This document shows, piece after piece, positions 1-57,846 of a stretch of DNA of 64,000 nucleotides. The notes under the pieces were generated by a model. That model did not search any database and was not told the origin of the DNA. It saw only the letters and a list, made by a program, of their open reading frames with translations. Location of the stretch: the NCBI RefSeq assembly GCF_005954645.2, contig NZ_CP040695.2, positions 1,426,001-1,490,000 on the forward strand, read 5' to 3'. Both the position numbers and the translations under genes were made by a program. Numbering within the stretch: position 1 is the stretch's first letter; each line of letters starts with the position of its first letter. This stretch comes from Nocardioides sp. S-1144 (lineage in GTDB: Bacteria > Actinomycetota > Actinomycetes > Propionibacteriales > Nocardioidaceae).

Positions 1-218
1 CCGACCTGGCCCGCCGGGTGGCCGCGGCCAACCCCGACGACCCCACCGACATCGGCACGTTCCGGTCGTTGACCGTGCTGGGCCGCGACGGCGGTGGCGC
101 GTTCGGCGGCCGGGTCACCTCGATCCGGATCACCGGCACCGCCGGCTCCACGGTGCTGACCGGCGAGAACTTCCGCTACCTCGCCGCCCTCCGCTCCACC
201 CTCTTCACGCTCTCCTGA
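1..218 (+). CDS. SpoIID/LytB-domain protein, C-terminal end (partial)
   Basis: Only the last 71 codons are in the window; the reading frame is open from base 3. The tail has the pattern seen at the end of SpoIID/LytB domains: a glycine-rich turn, then RITGTAGSTVLTGENFR and a final LRSTLF segment. Members of this family act on peptidoglycan outside the membrane, and in non-sporulating actinobacteria they are usually secreted proteins of unknown substrate. The gene ends 211 bp before the convergent pyruvate carboxylase stop, with a palindromic repeat array between them. The assignment rests on the tail only, so the N-terminal architecture is unknown. Confidence 0.6.
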   Translation, partial: DLARRVAAANPDDPTDIGTFRSLTVLGRDGGGAFGGRVTSIRITGTAGSTVLTGENFRYLAALRSTLFTLS

Positions 219-222
219 CGCC

Positions 223-420
223 GACCCGTCGCTGATCACTGACGGGTCACCTCACCTGGAGCGCTGACCCGTCGCTGATCACTGACGGGTCACCTCACCT
301 GGAGCGCTGACCCGTCGCTGATCACTGACGGGTCACCTCACGCGGTGCGCTGACCCGTCGCTGATCACTGACGGGTCACCTCACGCGGAGCGCTGACCCG
401 TCAGTGATCGCTGACGGGTC
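223..420. repeat. 43-bp tandem repeat, five copies, each with a near-palindrome
   Basis: Five copies start at 223, 266, 309, 352 and 395, an exact 43-bp period. Each holds the arms GACCCGTC and GACGGGTC, perfect reverse complements, around a core containing TGATCA (TGATCG in the last copy); 17-bp linkers separate them. The array fills the gap between two convergent genes. The same unit and period recur at 56611-56765. A role as bidirectional terminator is inferred from position and stem potential. Confidence 0.9.
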
Positions 421-429
421 AGCGTGGGG

Positions 430-3400
430 TCAGGTGAGGACGACGACCAGGTCGCCGCCGTCGACGGCCTGGGTGCCGCTGAGGGCGACCCGCTCGACCG
501 TGCCGGCGACCGGGGCGGTGATCGAGGCCTCCATCTTCATCGCCTCGATGGTGGCGACGGTCTGGCCGGCCTCGACGGCGTCGCCCGCGGCCACGGCGAG
601 CGTGACGACGCCCTGGTAGGGCGCCGCGACGTGGCCCGGCTTGGCGGGGTCGGCCTTCTCGGCGACGGCGACGTCGGAGGCGATCGAGCGGTCGCGCACC
701 GAGATCGGCCGCATCTGGCCGTTGATGGTGGTCATCACGGTGCGGATGCCGCGCTCGTCGGGCTCGCTGATCGCCTGGAGCCCGATCAGCAGCGTGACGC
801 CGGGCTCGAGCTCGACCTCGTGCTCCTCGCCCTGGCGCAGGCCGTAGAGGTAGTCGCGGGTCGGCAGCACCGAGATGTCGCCGAAGGTCTGCCGGGACTC
901 GTCGAACTCGCGCGTCGGGCCGGGGAAGAGCAGCTGGTTGAGGGTGCGCCGCCGCGTCGGCGCGGCGCCGGCCAGGCCGGCGGCCTGATCGTCGGTGAGG
1001 TTCTCCGCGGGCGCCTTCCAGGTGCGGCCCTCGAGGGCCCGCGACCGGAACGGCTCGGGCCAGCCGCCGGGCGGGTCGCCGAGCTCGCCGTTGAGGAAGC
1101 CGATCACGGAGTCGGGGATGTCGTAGCGCGACGGGTCCTCGGCGAACTCGGCCGGGTCGGCGCCGATGCCGACCAGCGCGAGGGCCAGGTCACCGATCAC
1201 CTTCGAGGACGGCGTCACCTTCGGCACCCGGCCGAGGATGTCGTTGGCCGCGGCGTACATGTCCTCGACCTGCTCGAACTTCTCGCCCAGGCCGAGGGCG
1301 ATCGCCTGCTGGCGCAGGTTGGAGAGCTGACCGCCGGGGATCTCGTGGCGGTACACGCGGCCGGTGGGGGCGGGCAGGCCCGACTCGAACGGCGCGTAGA
1401 CGCGGCGGGTCGCCTCCCAGTACGGCTCCAGGGCGTTGACGGCGGCCAGCGACAGGCCGGTCTCCCGCGGGGAGTGGTCGGTCGCCGAGACCAGGGCCGA
1501 CAGCGCCGGCTGGGACGTCGTGCCGGCCACCGCCGCGCAGGCCGCGTCGACGGCGTCCACCCCGGCGTCGATCGCCGCCAGGAGCGTGGCGAGCTGCCCG
1601 CCCGGGGTGTCGTGGGTGTGCAGGTGCACCGGGAGGTCGAAGCGGTCGCGCAGCGCGGAGACCAGGGTGCGGGCGGCCGGCGCGCGCAGCAGGCCGGCCA
1701 TGTCCTTGATCGCCAGCACGTGCGCGCCGGCGTCGACGATCCGCTCGGCCAGGCGCAGGTAGTAGTCGAGGGTGTAGAGGTCCTCGTCGGGGTTGGACAG
1801 GTCGCCGGTGTAGCAGAGGGCGACCTCGGCGACGGCGGTGCCCGTGGCGCGCACGGCCTCGATCGCCGGTCGCATCTGCTCCACGTCGTTGAGGGCGTCG
1901 AAGACCCGGAAGACGTCGATGCCGGTCGCCGCGGCCTCCTCGACGAAGGCGTTGGTGACGGCGGTCGGGTACGGGGTGTAGCCCACGGTGTTGCGCCCGC
2001 GCAGCAGCATCTGCAGGCAGATGTTGGGCACCGACTGCCGCAGCACGGCCAGCCGCTCCCACGGGTCCTCGCCGAGGAAGCGCAGCGCGACGTCGTAGGT
2101 CGCCCCGCCCCAGGCCTCGAGCGACCACAGCTCGGGCGTCGTGCGGGCCACGTGCCCCGCGACGGCGTCCAGGTCGCGGGTGCGGACCCGGGTGGCCAGC
2201 AGCGACTGGTGGGCGTCGCGGAACGTGGTGTCGGTGACGGCGACGCGGTCCTGGGCGCGCAGCCGGCGGGCGAACTCCTCCGGGCCGACCTCCAGCAGCA
2301 GCTGGCGGGTGCCGTCGGGGGCCGGGACCTCGAGGTCGACCGAGGGCAGCTTGCTCACCGGGTCGATGCTCACCGGCGCGGCGCCGTGCGGCTGGTTGAC
2401 CGTGACGTCGGCGAGGTAGGTCAGCAGCTTGGTGCCGCGGTCGCCGGAGCTGCGGGCGCTCAGCAGCTGCGGGTGGGTCTCGATGAACGACGTCGTCACC
2501 CGGCCGGCGGCGAAGTCGGGGTCGTCGAGCAGCGCCTGGAGGAAGGGGATGTTGGTGGAGACGCCGCGGATGCGGAACTCCGCCACCGCGCGCTTGGCCT
2601 TGGCGACCGCGCTCTCGAAGGTGCGGCCGCGGCAGGTGAGCTTGGCCAGCATCGAGTCGAAGTGCGCCGAGACCTCGGCGCCGGTGTAGACCGTGCCGCC
2701 GTCGAGCCGGATGCCGCCGCCGCCGGGGGAGCGGTAGGTGGTGATGATGCCGGTGTCGGGACGGAAGTTGTTGGCGGGGTCCTCGGTGGTGATCCGGCAC
2801 TGCAGGGCGGCGCCGCGCAGCTGCACGGTCTCCTGCGACAGGCCGAGGTCGTCGAGGGTCTCGCCCGCGGCGATCCGCAGCTGCGACTGCACGAGGTCGA
2901 CGTCGGTGACCTCCTCGGTCACGGTGTGCTCGACCTGGATGCGCGGGTTCATCTCGATGAAGACGTAGTTGCCCGCCGGGTCGAGGAGGAACTCGACGGT
3001 GCCGGCGTTGCGGTAGCCGATCTCGCGGGCGAAGCGGACGGCGTCCGCGCACATCCGCTCCCGCAGCTCGGGGTCGAGGTTGGGGGCCGGCGCGATCTCG
3101 ACGACCTTCTGGTGCCGGCGCTGCACCGAGCAGTCGCGCTCGAAGAGGTGCATCACGTGGCCCGCGCCGTCGGCGAGGATCTGCACCTCGATGTGGCGCG
3201 GCTCGACGACGGCCTGCTCGATGAAGACCGTCGGGTCGCCGAAGGCGCCCTCGCCCTCGCGCATGCAGGTCGCGACCGCCTCGCGCAGGTCCCGGGGGTC
3301 GTCGACGCGGCGCATGCCGCGCCCGCCGCCACCGGCGACGGCCTTGACGAACAGCGGGTACGGCAGGTCCGCGGCCGCGGCGACGAGGGTGTCGACGTCG

Positions 3401-3816
3401 GTGCCGGGCTCGACGCTGGCCAGCGTCGGGACGCCGGCCGCCTTGGCCGCCGCGATCGCGCGCGCCTTGTTGCCGGTCAGCTCGAGGACGTCGGAGGTCG
3501 GGCCGACGAAGGTGATGCCGGCGTTCGCGCAGGCCTCGGCCAGCGCCGGGTTCTCCGAGAGGAACCCGTAGCCGGGGTAGACGGCGTCCGCGCCCGCCCG
3601 GAGGGCGACCGCCACGATCGCGTCGGCGTCGAGGTAGGCGCGCACGGGGTGGCCGCGCTCGCCGATCTCGTAGGCCTCGTCGGCCTTGAGGCGGTGCTCG
3701 GACCAGCGGTCCTCGTAGGGGAACACCGCCACCGTCTTCGCGCCGAGCTCGTAGGCGGCGCGGAAGCCGCGGATCGCGATCTCGCCTCGGTTGGCGACCA
3801 GGACCTTGGAGAACAT
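430..3816 (-). CDS. pyc: pyruvate carboxylase
   Basis: Carboxylates pyruvate to oxaloacetate with ATP and bicarbonate; cytosolic anaplerotic enzyme. At 1128 residues it has the normal single-chain length. Biotin carboxylase fills roughly residues 1-450 (KVLVANRGEIA at the N terminus, ATP-grasp loop KAVAGGGGRGMRRV). The carboxyltransferase domain starts near 520 (TDTTFRDAHQSLLATRVRT), and the C-terminal biotinyl domain carries EAMKME with the biotin lysine at about K1094. I chose the ATG at 3816, which begins MFSKVLVANRGEIA, over an upstream in-frame start. A TAGGTT box at 3824-3829 lies 7 nt upstream, so the mRNA is probably leaderless. It stands alone, converging on the SpoIID-like gene. Confidence 0.97.
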   Translation of the reverse strand: MFSKVLVANRGEIAIRGFRAAYELGAKTVAVFPYEDRWSEHRLKADEAYEIGERGHPVRAYLDADAIVAVALRAGADAVYPGYGFLSENPALAEACANAGITFVGPTSDVLELTGNKARAIAAAKAAGVPTLASVEPGTDVDTLVAAAADLPYPLFVKAVAGGGGRGMRRVDDPRDLREAVATCMREGEGAFGDPTVFIEQAVVEPRHIEVQILADGAGHVMHLFERDCSVQRRHQKVVEIAPAPNLDPELRERMCADAVRFAREIGYRNAGTVEFLLDPAGNYVFIEMNPRIQVEHTVTEEVTDVDLVQSQLRIAAGETLDDLGLSQETVQLRGAALQCRITTEDPANNFRPDTGIITTYRSPGGGGIRLDGGTVYTGAEVSAHFDSMLAKLTCRGRTFESAVAKAKRAVAEFRIRGVSTNIPFLQALLDDPDFAAGRVTTSFIETHPQLLSARSSGDRGTKLLTYLADVTVNQPHGAAPVSIDPVSKLPSVDLEVPAPDGTRQLLLEVGPEEFARRLRAQDRVAVTDTTFRDAHQSLLATRVRTRDLDAVAGHVARTTPELWSLEAWGGATYDVALRFLGEDPWERLAVLRQSVPNICLQMLLRGRNTVGYTPYPTAVTNAFVEEAAATGIDVFRVFDALNDVEQMRPAIEAVRATGTAVAEVALCYTGDLSNPDEDLYTLDYYLRLAERIVDAGAHVLAIKDMAGLLRAPAARTLVSALRDRFDLPVHLHTHDTPGGQLATLLAAIDAGVDAVDAACAAVAGTTSQPALSALVSATDHSPRETGLSLAAVNALEPYWEATRRVYAPFESGLPAPTGRVYRHEIPGGQLSNLRQQAIALGLGEKFEQVEDMYAAANDILGRVPKVTPSSKVIGDLALALVGIGADPAEFAEDPSRYDIPDSVIGFLNGELGDPPGGWPEPFRSRALEGRTWKAPAENLTDDQAAGLAGAAPTRRRTLNQLLFPGPTREFDESRQTFGDISVLPTRDYLYGLRQGEEHEVELEPGVTLLIGLQAISEPDERGIRTVMTTINGQMRPISVRDRSIASDVAVAEKADPAKPGHVAAPYQGVVTLAVAAGDAVEAGQTVATIEAMKMEASITAPVAGTVERVALSGTQAVDGGDLVVVLT

Positions 3817-3903
3817 GGCCGCAAACCTAGTGGCGGCGGGGACCGTCCCGGTCACGAGTCTCATGGTGCGGGTGGTGCGCGCGCCGGCGTGGCGCCGCCC
3901 GGC

Positions 3904-54795: not shown

Positions 54796-55707
54796 GTGCA
54801 GGTCGTGGCGGTGGTGGTGACGTTCAACCGGCTGCCCCTCCTCGAACGGCTGCTCGACCGGCTCCTGGAGGTGCGGGAGGTCGCCGAGGTGCTCGTGGTC
54901 GACAACGCCTCCACCGACGGCACGGGGGAGTGGCTGCGCGGCCGGTTCCCCCACGGCGGCCCCGACCGCGTCCGGACCCGGACCCTCGACTCCAACACCG
55001 GCGGCGCGGGCGGCTTCGCCACCGGGCTCACCTGGGCGATGGAGCGCGACGCCGACCGCGTCTGGCTGATGGACGACGACGCCGTGCCGGAGCCCGACTG
55101 CCTCGCGCTGCTCCTCGAGCGGCCCGACCTCGACTTCTGGGGCCCGGCCGTGGTCGCGGAGCAGGACGCCTCCCGCCTGTGCTTCCCGATCCGGCTCCCC
55201 GGCGGCACCCGGGTGGTGCACCGGATGGCCGAGGTCGAGGCCGCCGCGCGCGACGGGCTGATCCCGGGCGTGGTGATCCCGTTCAACGGCGTCCTGGTGA
55301 CCCGCGAGCTCGTCGAGCGGATCGGCGTCCCGCGGGCGGAGTTCTTCATCTGGGGCGACGACGTCGAGTACCTCTGGCGGGCCGAGCGGGCCGGCGCCCG
55401 GATCGCGACCGTCGTCGAGGCGATCTTCACCAACCCGGCCACCGACGACCTCGGCACCCCGATGATGTTCGGCCGCACGACGTACAACCACACGCCCAGC
55501 GACCTCAAGCACTACTGCATGGCCCGCAACAACACCGTCAACCTGCGCGACTACCGCGGCTGGCCGTTCGTGCTGATGTTCTGGGTCAAGACCGTCTGGT
55601 TCTACCTGTTCACCCGCCGCCGGCCGGGCCGGATCGCGATGAGCGCGCGGGCGGCGTGGGCCGGGCTGCGCGGCGACTTCACCGGGCACCGGAAGTACCT
55701 GGCGTGA
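54796..55707 (+). CDS. GT2 galactofuranosyltransferase, GlfT1-like (first)
   Basis: 303 residues, GT-A fold. N-terminal VVAVVVTFNRLPLLERLLD, DNASTDGTGEWL, the NTGGAGGFATGLTWAM loop typical of GlfT1-like enzymes, and metal-binding DDD in VWLMDDDAVPEPDCL. C-terminal amphipathic helices (TVWFYLFTRRRPGR) attach it to the membrane. In mycobacteria GlfT1 adds the first galactofuranoses to the lipid-linked primer. The GTG at 54796 follows TAGGGT (54783-54788) by 7 nt. Overlaps the next GT2 gene by 4 nt. Confidence 0.88.
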   Translation: MQVVAVVVTFNRLPLLERLLDRLLEVREVAEVLVVDNASTDGTGEWLRGRFPHGGPDRVRTRTLDSNTGGAGGFATGLTWAMERDADRVWLMDDDAVPEPDCLALLLERPDLDFWGPAVVAEQDASRLCFPIRLPGGTRVVHRMAEVEAAARDGLIPGVVIPFNGVLVTRELVERIGVPRAEFFIWGDDVEYLWRAERAGARIATVVEAIFTNPATDDLGTPMMFGRTTYNHTPSDLKHYCMARNNTVNLRDYRGWPFVLMFWVKTVWFYLFTRRRPGRIAMSARAAWAGLRGDFTGHRKYLA

Positions 55708-56612
55708 GCGCGGCCGAGACGGTCGCGGTCGTCGTGGTGACCTACAACCGCGCCGACCTGCTCGAGGGCATGCTCGCCGGCCTGGCCGCGCTCGAGCCGG
55801 CGCCCGACGCGGTGATCGTGGTCGACAACCACAGCGACGACCACACCGCCGACGTCCTCGCCCGGGCCGGTCTCCCGGGGCTGCAGGTGCTCCGCACCGA
55901 CGACAACCTGGGCGGTGCCGGCGGCTTCCACCTCGCCGTCCGCACGGCCCACGAGCAGGGCTACGACCGGATCTGGCTGATGGACGACGACGTCCTCCCC
56001 GCGCCCGACTGCCTGGCCAGGCTGATGGCGGTCGACGAGGCCTGCCTGACGTCGGTGCGCGAGGACCGCAGCGGCGCCCTGGTCGAGAAGGCCGCGACCC
56101 GCTTCGACCTACGCAACCCGCTAGCGATCAAGCCGAAGACCGCGATGGTCGAGACCGACTTCGGCACCCGCGCGGCGATGCCCGAGCTGGTCGAGGTGCA
56201 GAACGTCGCCTTCGAGGGCTTCCTGGTGCGCCGCGAGGTCGTCGACGCGATCGGGCTGCCCGACCCGGCCTACTTCATCTTCTACGACGACGTCGACTTC
56301 GCCGTGCGCGCCCGTCGCGCCGGGTACCGCATCTGGGCGGTCCGCGACGCCGTCCTGGTGCGCCGGCTCGACTTCGACCAGCAGCACGACCTGGCGGGCT
56401 GGAAGGGGTACTACATGTACCGCAACCTGTTCGTCGTGCACCGCCGCTACGGCGAGAACGCGCTGGTGCGGGCCAAGCCGTGGCTGATCGCGCTGGCCGT
56501 CGTCCTGCTCAGCCCGCTGCGCGGTGGCCGGGCCGAGGCCCGCAACGTCGTCCGCGCGGCCCGGGACTCGCGCACCCTGACCCGGCTCTCACCCGAGGCC
56601 CGCCCCCGCTGA
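55704..56612 (+). CDS. GT2 galactofuranosyltransferase, GlfT1-like (second)
   Basis: 302 residues, a close structural parallel of the preceding gene (AVVVVTYNRADLLEGML, DNLGGAGGFHLAVRTA, IWLMDDDVLPAPDCLARL), so the pair probably arose by duplication. Two related enzymes suggest successive sugar additions or different linkages. It starts at GTG 55704, overlapping the previous stop (GTGA). Its own stop codon is the first two bases of a palindromic repeat array. Confidence 0.88.
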   Translation: MSAAETVAVVVVTYNRADLLEGMLAGLAALEPAPDAVIVVDNHSDDHTADVLARAGLPGLQVLRTDDNLGGAGGFHLAVRTAHEQGYDRIWLMDDDVLPAPDCLARLMAVDEACLTSVREDRSGALVEKAATRFDLRNPLAIKPKTAMVETDFGTRAAMPELVEVQNVAFEGFLVRREVVDAIGLPDPAYFIFYDDVDFAVRARRAGYRIWAVRDAVLVRRLDFDQQHDLAGWKGYYMYRNLFVVHRRYGENALVRAKPWLIALAVVLLSPLRGGRAEARNVVRAARDSRTLTRLSPEARPR

Positions 56613-56765
56613 CCCGTCCCTGATCAGCGACGGGTCGGCACCAAACTCGCGCTGACCCGTCAGTGATCAGCGACGGGTCGGCACGAAAAGCCCGCTGACC
56701 CGTCAGTGATCAGCGACGGGTCGGCACCAAATCCGCGGTGACCCGTCAGTGATCAGCGACGGGTC
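56611..56765. repeat. 43-bp tandem repeat, four copies, same palindrome as at 223-420
   Basis: Copies start at 56611, 56654, 56697 and 56740, exactly 43 bp apart. Each has GACCCGTC, a core TGATCA, and GACGGGTC. Linkers differ from the first locus (GGCACCAAA-type instead of ACCTCACC-type). The array spans the whole gap between the convergent GT2 and PAP2 genes. Confidence 0.9.
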
Positions 56766-56769
56766 AGGG

Positions 56770-57846
56770 TCAGGCGACGGGGGTGGAGGTGACCTCGTCG
56801 GTGACCTCGGCGCGCTTGAGCCGGGGACGGAGCCCGTCGTGGTTGCCGGTGGCGAGGGCGGCGAGCCAGACGGTGACCGACCCGAGGGCGACGCCGCCGA
56901 GGACGTCGACGAAGTAGTGCCAGCCGAGGTAGAGGGTGGCCACGATCGTGAGGCCGAGGAAGACCCACGACACCACGCGGATCCAGCGCGCCAGGCCGAC
57001 GTACTGGGCGAAGACGCAGATCGTCACCATGATCCCGGTGTGCAGCGACGGGAAGGCCGCGATCGTCTGCAGGGTGCCGGAGCCGAAGACGTCGCCGACG
57101 ACCGCGACGCGGTCGTCCCACATGCTGTTGGCGAGGTCGGTGTTGTAGGTGTGGTCGAGGGCGTCGAACTGGCCGCGCTGGGCGGTGGTGTACACCGGGC
57201 CGACCGACGGCAGCATCAGGTAGACCGCCGCGCCGAGCAGCCAGTCGAAGGCCACCGCGGTGACGTACCACGAGCTGGCGGTCCGCGACCGGGTCCAGAC
57301 CAGCGCGATCGCGATGCTCACCGGCACCAGGGCGATCCAGATGAAGTAGACGCCGGAGAAGACGTGCGAGGCGATGCCGGTGCCGAAGAGGTCGTGCATC
57401 AGGACGGCGGGGTCGTGGCCGAACCACAGCACCTGGTCGATCTTGCGGAACTCGGCGTCCCAGTTGTGGCCGTTGACGAACGGCACGAAGCTCTTGAGGT
57501 TCCGGAAGGCGGCGTAGGTGAGGTACCAGGCGCCGATGCCGCTCAGCGCGAAGAGCCAGTGCGCCTTGGTCCAGCGCTCGCGCATGATCCCGCGCAGCGT
57601 CTCGACCGCGCCCCGGGAGCCGTGGGTCAGGCGCCAGACCAGCCGCGGCAGGACGTCGAGCGCGATGGCGCCGAAGACGATCGCCGGGAAGCGGATGTAG
57701 CCGGGCACGAAGTTGTCGGGGTCGCGGATCGGCAGCTCGGCGACGGCGGCGAACACGACGGTCGCGACCGCCATGGCGATGCCGGCCGCCCAGGCGTACC
57801 CGAAGTTGCGCTCGAGAACGGCGCGCACGCCCACAGACTCCTGCAT
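56770..57846 (-). CDS. PAP2-superfamily membrane phosphatase
   Basis: 358 residues with about eight helices. The PAP2 signature is spread over MLPSVGPVYTT, the second motif FPSLHTGIMVT (Ser-Leu-His) near 265, and LGWHYFVDVLGGVALG near 315. Members dephosphorylate polyprenyl or inositol lipids, or act as inositol phosphotransferases in mycobacterial cell-wall synthesis. Its place inside a galactan locus suggests lipid carrier recycling (inference). ATG 57846 is 7 nt after TAAACT (57854-57859). Confidence 0.88.
   Translation of the reverse strand: MQESVGVRAVLERNFGYAWAAGIAMAVATVVFAAVAELPIRDPDNFVPGYIRFPAIVFGAIALDVLPRLVWRLTHGSRGAVETLRGIMRERWTKAHWLFALSGIGAWYLTYAAFRNLKSFVPFVNGHNWDAEFRKIDQVLWFGHDPAVLMHDLFGTGIASHVFSGVYFIWIALVPVSIAIALVWTRSRTASSWYVTAVAFDWLLGAAVYLMLPSVGPVYTTAQRGQFDALDHTYNTDLANSMWDDRVAVVGDVFGSGTLQTIAAFPSLHTGIMVTICVFAQYVGLARWIRVVSWVFLGLTIVATLYLGWHYFVDVLGGVALGSVTVWLAALATGNHDGLRPRLKRAEVTDEVTSTPVA

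Follow-up and report, generated by a model that had tools for sequence, protein, structure and literature searches.

Arrays of a REP-like palindrome at convergent gene ends in Nocardioides sp. S-1144, apparently paired with a predicted AbiEi/EDxHD endonuclease

Among the short repeats dispersed in bacterial chromosomes, the REP and REPIN elements with their RAYT (TnpA-REP) genes offer the closest comparison for the palindromes described here. Passages of PMC3733652 and PMC3116915 present them as short extragenic palindromes occurring in many copies at the 3' ends of genes, with a bias towards convergent and unidirectional gaps, and passages of the latter associate each type of palindrome with one single-copy gene flanked by that very palindrome. 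As far as these passages go, a genome can harbour two distinct genes, each accompanied by a family of its own, and the variants are species-specific; the co-evolution of RAYTs with their REPs is stated in PMC8266576. The CGTC-tagged REPs (Di Nocera et al. 2013) consist of palindromes with a stem of 8-9 bp located at 3' ends, in which CGTC forms an unpaired terminal tag and for which the passages concerned (PMC3733652) name no dedicated gene; the text of that paper contains no match for 'actinobacter' or 'nocardi'. On the protein side, two groups have to be taken into account, i.e., the homing endonuclease I-Bth0305I together with Vsr, the EDxHD name and its kinship to restriction-type chemistry being treated in part of PMC3943268, and the AbiEi antitoxins of type IV toxin-antitoxin systems, which bind inverted repeats according to PMC7319586.

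The palindromes of Nocardioides sp. S-1144 share with REPs a size of 20-40 bp, a high copy number and an extragenic location near 3' ends, with the same preference for convergent gaps. As in REP-like systems in the wider sense, a gene is flanked by its own palindrome, the flanking motif predicts a dispersed family, and two such genes with distinct families reside in one genome. They differ from REP/RAYT systems in that the gene encodes an AbiEi/EDxHD-type predicted nuclease instead of a Y1 HUH enzyme, the GTAG tag is missing, the copies form arrays with a period of 43 bp, and the centre is rewritten in place between sister species. CGTC is present in the arm GACCCGTC, but in contrast to the CGTC-tagged REPs it lies inside the paired stem, and a linked gene is present. 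The predicted protein resembles I-Bth0305I and Vsr by the modelled fold of its C-terminal domain, and the palindrome suggests a long symmetric target, whereas no intron or intein is seen around the gene, the putative targets are many dispersed palindromes, and the N-terminal part is AbiEi-like. With AbiEi antitoxins it would have in common an N-terminal winged-helix followed by a second domain, as judged from the model, but it possesses an additional nuclease domain, its sites are dispersed over the genome, and no AbiEii/DUF1814 toxin gene adjoins its gene. Taking these comparisons together with the results given below, it seems somewhat probable that the arrays are members of a REP-like family paired with one dedicated predicted AbiEi/EDxHD endonuclease, which would maintain and rewrite the palindromes.

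The window, i.e., the whole stretch of 64,000 nucleotides that was analysed, contains two arrays (Table 1). The original prediction, made from this stretch, had announced five and four palindromic repeats with a 43-bp period at two loci, each between convergent genes, and both points are confirmed with a spacing of 43 bp throughout, array 1 separating the SpoIID-domain and pyruvate carboxylase genes and array 2 the glycosyltransferase and PAP2 genes. Array 1 begins 4 bp after the stop codon TGA (216-218) of the SpoIID-domain gene, the first palindrome of array 2 overlaps the stop codon TGA (56610-56612) of the glycosyltransferase gene, and the stop codon of the PAP2 gene is located 4 bp past array 2. 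A search allowing up to 3 mismatches retrieved exactly these nine palindromes from the window, with none expected from 100 shuffles. The arms had been described as surrounding TGATCA, which holds for most of the copies but not for copy 5 of array 1, whose core is AGTGATCGCT, so that TGATCA is not always perfect. Array 1 with its flanks had no match in phage records.

Table 1. Coordinates of the two arrays and their neighbouring genes (positions of the window) and of the candidate cognate gene (positions of the host contig)
Feature	Coordinates	Strand	Remarks
SpoIID-domain protein gene, 3' end	1-218	+	Pfam SpoIID 8.6e-27 for the complete gene (L065)
Array 1, five 26-bp palindromes	223-420	.	Period 43, linkers 17 nt; copies 223-248, 266-291, 309-334, 352-377, 395-420; centres GC-TGATCA-CT in four copies, AG-TGATCG-CT in the last
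Pyruvate carboxylase gene	430-3864	-	Stop codon 9 bp past array 1
Family 2 glycosyltransferase gene	55707-56612	+	Start provisional
Array 2, four 26-bp palindromes	56611-56765	.	Period 43; copies 56611-56636, 56654-56679, 56697-56722, 56740-56765; centres CC-TGATCA-GC in the first copy, AG-TGATCA-GC in the remaining copies
PAP2-superfamily phosphatase gene	56770-57690	-	Low coordinate is the stop codon; start approximate
Candidate cognate gene	2916407-2917375 (contig)	-	Between cytochrome b and YkuD L,D-transpeptidase genes

In the host contig of 4,427,648 bp (the own genome in the comparisons below), the pattern GACCCGTC-N10-GACGGGTC occurs 147 times, against 0 for the reversed control pattern. 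The sequence analysed in detail comprises the stretches around every listed place plus the last third of the chromosome, which together make up 53% of the genome and hold all 147 exact-arm places. In it, the 26-bp palindrome is represented by 159 copies that deviate at no more than one position over arms and core and are distributed over 70 loci with 1 to 8 copies each; copies with 2-4 mismatches are absent from this 53%, and the background begins at 5 mismatches (2 matches). The 22 fixed positions of the palindrome differ by about 1%, as compared to 19% for the 17-nt linkers within an array and 54% between arrays, so that arrays apparently grow by local duplication, the linkers drifting and the palindromes not. 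The idea of a conserved dispersed element, locally expanded, with a constrained palindrome and with linkers alike within a locus but different between loci, is therefore upheld. Each half-site reads GACCCGTC-[GC or AG]-TGA. The two halves of the palindrome agree at 22 of the 28 single-copy loci, and at these 28 loci the outer flank positions 1-2 pair and covary (Fisher p 0.006; permutation p 0.0065 and 0.01). Multi-copy arrays exhibit no covariation of the half-sites; on visual inspection, asymmetry in a single orientation often runs through the entire array, apart from a symmetric GC-GC copy at one end. A stretch of 411 kb (2383146-2793610, own genome) is devoid of palindrome loci, which is not significant when taken alone (P 0.08).

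Successive copies are spaced by 43 bp in 75 cases, and otherwise by 32 (8), 41 (4) or 42 bp (2). Selection on the palindrome itself, one half of what had been proposed, agrees with these data, whereas selection on the spacing is possible, tandem duplication also generating a constant period. Phasing by helical turns is left unproved, given that the 32-bp spacing is confined to 3 loci and differs from the 43-bp spacing, by eye, by a duplicated 11-bp piece. Two of the arrays with the 32-bp spacing lie 10 kb apart in the own genome (3470585-3470845 and 3460377-3460477); they differ from the 43-bp form by the duplicated 11-bp GACCCGTCGCT, and most of their inner copies share the CACCCGTC variant.

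With respect to gene order, the 70 loci were placed on 2202 genes called by a purpose-written gene finder (coding share 91%). Convergent genes surround 43 of the 70 loci, as against 392 of the 2167 adjacent gene pairs (18%) in the same sequence; restricting the background to gaps of 20-600 bp leaves the convergent proportion at 18%, which gives a binomial p of about 2e-15 for the loci. The genome-wide count put forward as a check of the original prediction thus brings out the very bias whose absence would have spoken against it. For 66 of the 70 loci, the distance to the preceding stop codon is 30 bp at most, and 18 loci overlap the stop codon itself. The calls include a few oddities: two loci come out as divergent, and among the 43 convergent ones two overlap a called gene. 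A GC-rich stem is present at the gene ends, and inspection by eye of the flanks of all 70 loci revealed mostly CGCT/AGCG or GCC/GGC.

Searching 215 genomes of the genus, the TGATCA-core pattern was found in two, the own genome (143) and its closest relative G128, which is Nocardioides sp. 1609 (4). With an open core, nine genomes contain at least 24 copies each, namely the own genome (147), G189 (124), G128 (123), G155 (109), G098 (81), G092 (72), G181 (37), G068 (24) and G168 (24); elsewhere in the genus the number is at most 6 per genome, and it is 0 in 177 of the 215 genomes searched. Each of the palindrome-rich genomes has its own centre, e.g., ACCTATAGGT in G128, GCCCATGGGC in G092 and GCGTNNACGC in G098. 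In G128, where the array period is again mostly 43, comparison of 700-bp flanks indicates that 24 of 27 arrays share their place with the own genome, three of these 24 places being based on one flank only and two of the three pointing to a single own array. Two of the 27 arrays had entered the comparison by their TGATCA core, and omitting them leaves 22 shared places out of 25. As for the remaining arrays of G128, two have no match in the fetched part of the own genome and one corresponds to an own place without palindrome (L212).

The two species differ at position 3 of the half-core: of the 318 own half-sites, 315 have T at this position, and C stands there in 96 of the 106 half-sites of G128 (94 of 100 without the two TGATCA-selected loci). 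Three single-copy own loci keep the same TGATCA-type core in both genomes, and intermediate half-cores (AGCGA, GCCGA, ACCGA) occur in G128. Shared array places combined with changed centres show that the centre was replaced in place.

The candidate cognate gene was found by looking for genes located between palindromes; palindrome arrays flank it on both sides, at about 1.43 Mb from the arrays of the window. Homologs of the gene occur in 180 genomes. The best of them in the genus all reside in palindrome-rich genomes (G128, 67%; G189, 61%; G092, 60%; G098, 59%; G181, 59%), and the homolog of G155 also has palindromes on both sides. Among the 15 best homolog loci (L215 and L217-L230, the own paralog being excluded and the second side of the own L215 being read from the genome-wide locus map), palindromes occur on both sides in 11, on one side in 2, and on neither side at the threshold in 2. 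In a protein tree, a single clade (99/99) unites the seven rows labelled GACCCGTC; the G126 row was disregarded owing to a wrong open frame, and one G200 row has an X at an internal stop. The assumption that any gene lying between two arrays is special was dropped, an ordinary gene (2793750-2794619, panB-like by eye) being situated between two single palindromes.

Beyond the close homologs, a flank test was performed on the best 80 of 197 relatives, mostly from Nocardioides with some from Marmoricola and Microlunatus, and 75 loci offered complete flanks. At 43 of these 75 loci the left and right flanks have an inverted repeat of 15 nt or more in common, as against 1 of 387 own control genes (Fisher 8e-39), and at the other 32 no inverted repeat reaches this threshold; direct flank repeats are shared at 5 of 75 and 5 of 387 loci, respectively. 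In many other species, as seen at 8 inspected loci, the motif is not a palindrome but a direct repeat of about 20-32 nt starting at the stop codon of the neighbour. The motif GACCCGCCCGAAA-N-TTTCGGGCGGGTC, read from the homolog flanks in G161, G166, G177, G200 and G203, recurs 66, 19, 50, 39 and 52 times in these respective genomes; it occurs 16 times in G171, a 69% complete assembly with no close homolog seen, once in G169, and not at all in the other 208 of the 215 genomes. At the sequence level, the gene and the palindrome motif are thus paired, the flanking motif predicting a dispersed family. Flank repeats suggest that the system, so far encountered in Nocardioides, perhaps extends to other Propionibacteriales.

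The own paralog (2032133-2033044, 42% identity) is flanked on either side by a copy of another 43-bp palindrome (L216). A smaller family of its own, CGCCGAGTCGGCGTTCG..CGAACGCCGACTCGGCG, after which a conserved tail resembling GACTTGAACTTCA is often seen, appears to occupy 7 intergenic places in the fetched half of the genome, as judged from 12 groups (260619, 2877945, 3148948, 3430397, 3504937, 3620835 and 4252547). In N. pinisoli, an uncultured Nocardioides sp. and N. pini (L278, L281 and L286), homologs with differing neighbours are bordered on both sides by 3-6 direct repeats of about 31-32 nt (GACCGGGCACTTCC...), which start at or near the TGA stop codon of the neighbour gene and read with that gene.

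The AlphaFold model of the 322-residue protein has a mean pLDDT of 89.6 and a pTM of 0.85. Its C-terminal domain superimposes on I-Bth0305I (3r3p_A) with a Z score of 11.7 and 2.4 A over 95 residues, and on the putative endonuclease 3hrl and Vsr with Z scores of 10.3 and 9.6, respectively, while residues 11-204 align with an AbiEi antitoxin (Z 9.3, 177 residues, rmsd 9.4 A). The nuclease fold is read from these superposition Z scores and not from Foldseek, which taken alone is weak for this domain (I-Bth0305I, E 1.4). Residues E212, D245, H263 and D271 are invariant in 28 homologs and may correspond to the conserved E, D, H and D residues of EDxHD homing endonucleases. Pfam AbiEi_4 (3e-5) falls just under the cut-off and PADLOC AbiEi gives 1.1e-13; a sequence profile found no solved structure at E 0.1, NCBIfam returned no match for the own protein or its paralog, and the G203 homolog has a weak NCBIfam DUF559 match (E 0.0038), far below the cut-off. 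The gene is accordingly predicted to encode a site-specific endonuclease that combines an EDxHD/Vsr-like nuclease domain with an AbiEi-like part for DNA binding. Between the own genome and G128 the nuclease gene shows 67% amino-acid identity, with dS 0.65 and dN 0.25, as compared to medians of 94%, 0.18 and 0.03 for 45 genes (nuclease gene included), the next lowest identity being 84%. As dS is raised along with dN, the divergence may reflect a single allele replacement as much as a steady fast evolution.

Two palindrome-bearing genomes, G068 and G168, have only distant matches to the protein profile (best 7.4e-13 and 8.5e-16), the absence of the gene from G168 being uncertain because its assembly is 89% complete. 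Counting copies with at most 2 arm mismatches and subtracting the reversed control, exact copies amount to 24 of 61 in G068 and 24 of 74 in G168, against 147/167, 123/149, 72/88, 81/93, 124/156, 109/138 and 37/49 (76-88%) in the seven gene-bearing genomes. The pooled Fisher test gives 9e-28 for copies that are not independent and for two gene-less genomes only. In these two genomes, for which a close homolog was not detected, the palindromes are degenerate.

Binding, cutting and copying by the nuclease, as we infer them, might proceed as follows. The AbiEi-like part would bind two head-to-head half-sites, GACCCGTC-NN-TGA in the own species, one per monomer, and a spacing of about 3 or 4 helical turns would permit side-by-side binding. 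The EDxHD-like part would nick or cut the centre of the palindrome, and repair from other copies, by gene conversion or slippage, would keep the copies uniform and expand the arrays in tandem. Following a change in the specificity of the protein, this copying repair would rewrite the centres in place. The sites would persist after stop codons since insertions elsewhere are harmful and a hairpin may be tolerated or useful at the ends of transcripts. No new palindrome insertion was caught between the own genome and G128, and the conserved array positions fit maintenance and conversion better than active transposition. A more daring proposal, which we advance tentatively and would not yet bet on, is an intragenomic homing unlike any described, in which an AbiEi-EDxHD endonuclease, resident in the host and vertically placed, would keep over 100 post-gene palindromes uniform and rewrite their centres chromosome-wide upon each change of its specificity, whether this came about through allele replacement or through fast evolution.

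The main rival to this scheme of cutting and copying is a pure binding role combined with co-evolution by point mutation. The palindromes would then be architectural or regulatory sites to which the AbiEi-nuclease, its nuclease perhaps inactive or rarely used, binds for anchoring, insulation or termination after genes; selection would keep each site, and point mutations would follow the changes in specificity of the protein. Such a role agrees with the 24 of 27 arrays that hold their position while the cores change, and a stepwise change would account for the intermediate half-cores of G128 and for the few unchanged single-copy sites. The spacings of 43, 41, 42 and 32 bp, which keep about 4 or 3 helical turns, and the inverted-repeat binding reported for AbiEi proteins in PMC7319586 also speak for it. 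It would require, however, well over 100 parallel substitutions at one and the same half-site position, while the silent-site difference is about 0.18, and the invariance of the presumed nuclease residues in 28 homologs argues that the nuclease is used. On balance, we regard this explanation as rather unlikely, though it deserves serious attention.

Of the three options originally envisaged, the REP-like one fits best, a bound protein is likely and now has a named candidate, and the plain bidirectional terminator proves insufficient, given the lack of a U-tract, a sequence fixed across loci and a core that changed between species. The remaining explanations dispense with this protein. The palindromes might be bidirectional intrinsic terminators or hairpins protecting the 3' end of mRNAs, with a sequence common by descent only and no dedicated protein. 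Their location just after stop codons at 66 of the 70 loci, the matching half-sites and covarying outer flanks of the single-copy loci, and a stable predicted RNA fold for both arrays of the window are in keeping with such a function. T tracts (at least 5 T in 10 nt) occur in only 3 of 56 flanks of single-copy loci, although U-less terminators remain compatible with this, the half-sites of multi-copy arrays do not covary, and the window contains no Rfam family at the gathering threshold. Since it also leaves the identical arms, the species-specific cores and the tie to one gene unexplained, this reading is improbable. Classical REP/RAYT elements moved by a Y1 (HUH) transposase occupy the same genomic niche and obey the same logic of one gene for many palindromes (passages of PMC3733652 and PMC3116915), but Y1_Tnp (PF01797) has 0 matches in the own genome, while the same search was positive in 5 of 14 control genomes, and inspection by eye of the flanks of all 70 loci disclosed no unpaired GTAG tag; the family is therefore not a REP/RAYT member in the strict sense, and we give this possibility hardly any credit. 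DNA uptake sequences, finally, exist in species 'dialects' and form inverted repeats at 3' ends. An arrangement of such sequences as inverted repeats would resemble the present palindromes in both respects, but solitary half-sites GACCCGTC-NN-TGA number 2 outside palindromes, against 302 inside, in the fetched 53% of the genome, which makes it equally far-fetched.

If the pairing of the palindromes with a maintaining endonuclease is correct, REP-like palindromes spread over a genome have arisen together with a second enzyme type that is unrelated to the first, and the general traits of such systems, i.e., one gene, many 3'-end palindromes and co-evolving centres, can be separated from those specific to HUH enzymes. 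The more tentative homing proposal, if true, would amount to a bacterial counterpart of drive, in which one fast-changing DNA-recognition protein co-evolves with its many sites. The species considered here would then offer a natural series with shared sites and different centres, in which a single protein and one oligonucleotide set would permit a direct test of how short repeats dispersed in bacterial genomes are kept uniform and yet change in concert. No such gene-palindrome pairing was found among open-licence PMC papers, which does not prove its absence from print.

Repeats unrelated to the palindrome were also observed at equivalent places. At about 2106323-2106512 (L073), a place occupied by a palindrome array in G128, the own genome instead contains an unrelated repeat, GGGGGTTTCGTCGGCGCTCGCCGGGGCTCGCTTGCTCAACCTCCGGGTGGCTTGG, of about 60 nt in two copies. 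At the position corresponding to array 1, before the 3' end of the pyruvate carboxylase gene, unrelated tandem repeats occur in G097 (L157, GCCGAGTCGGCG type) and G074 (L148, GTGCCGGAAGTGCCGACTCGG type), and this 3' end looks like a standing host for tandem arrays in several species.
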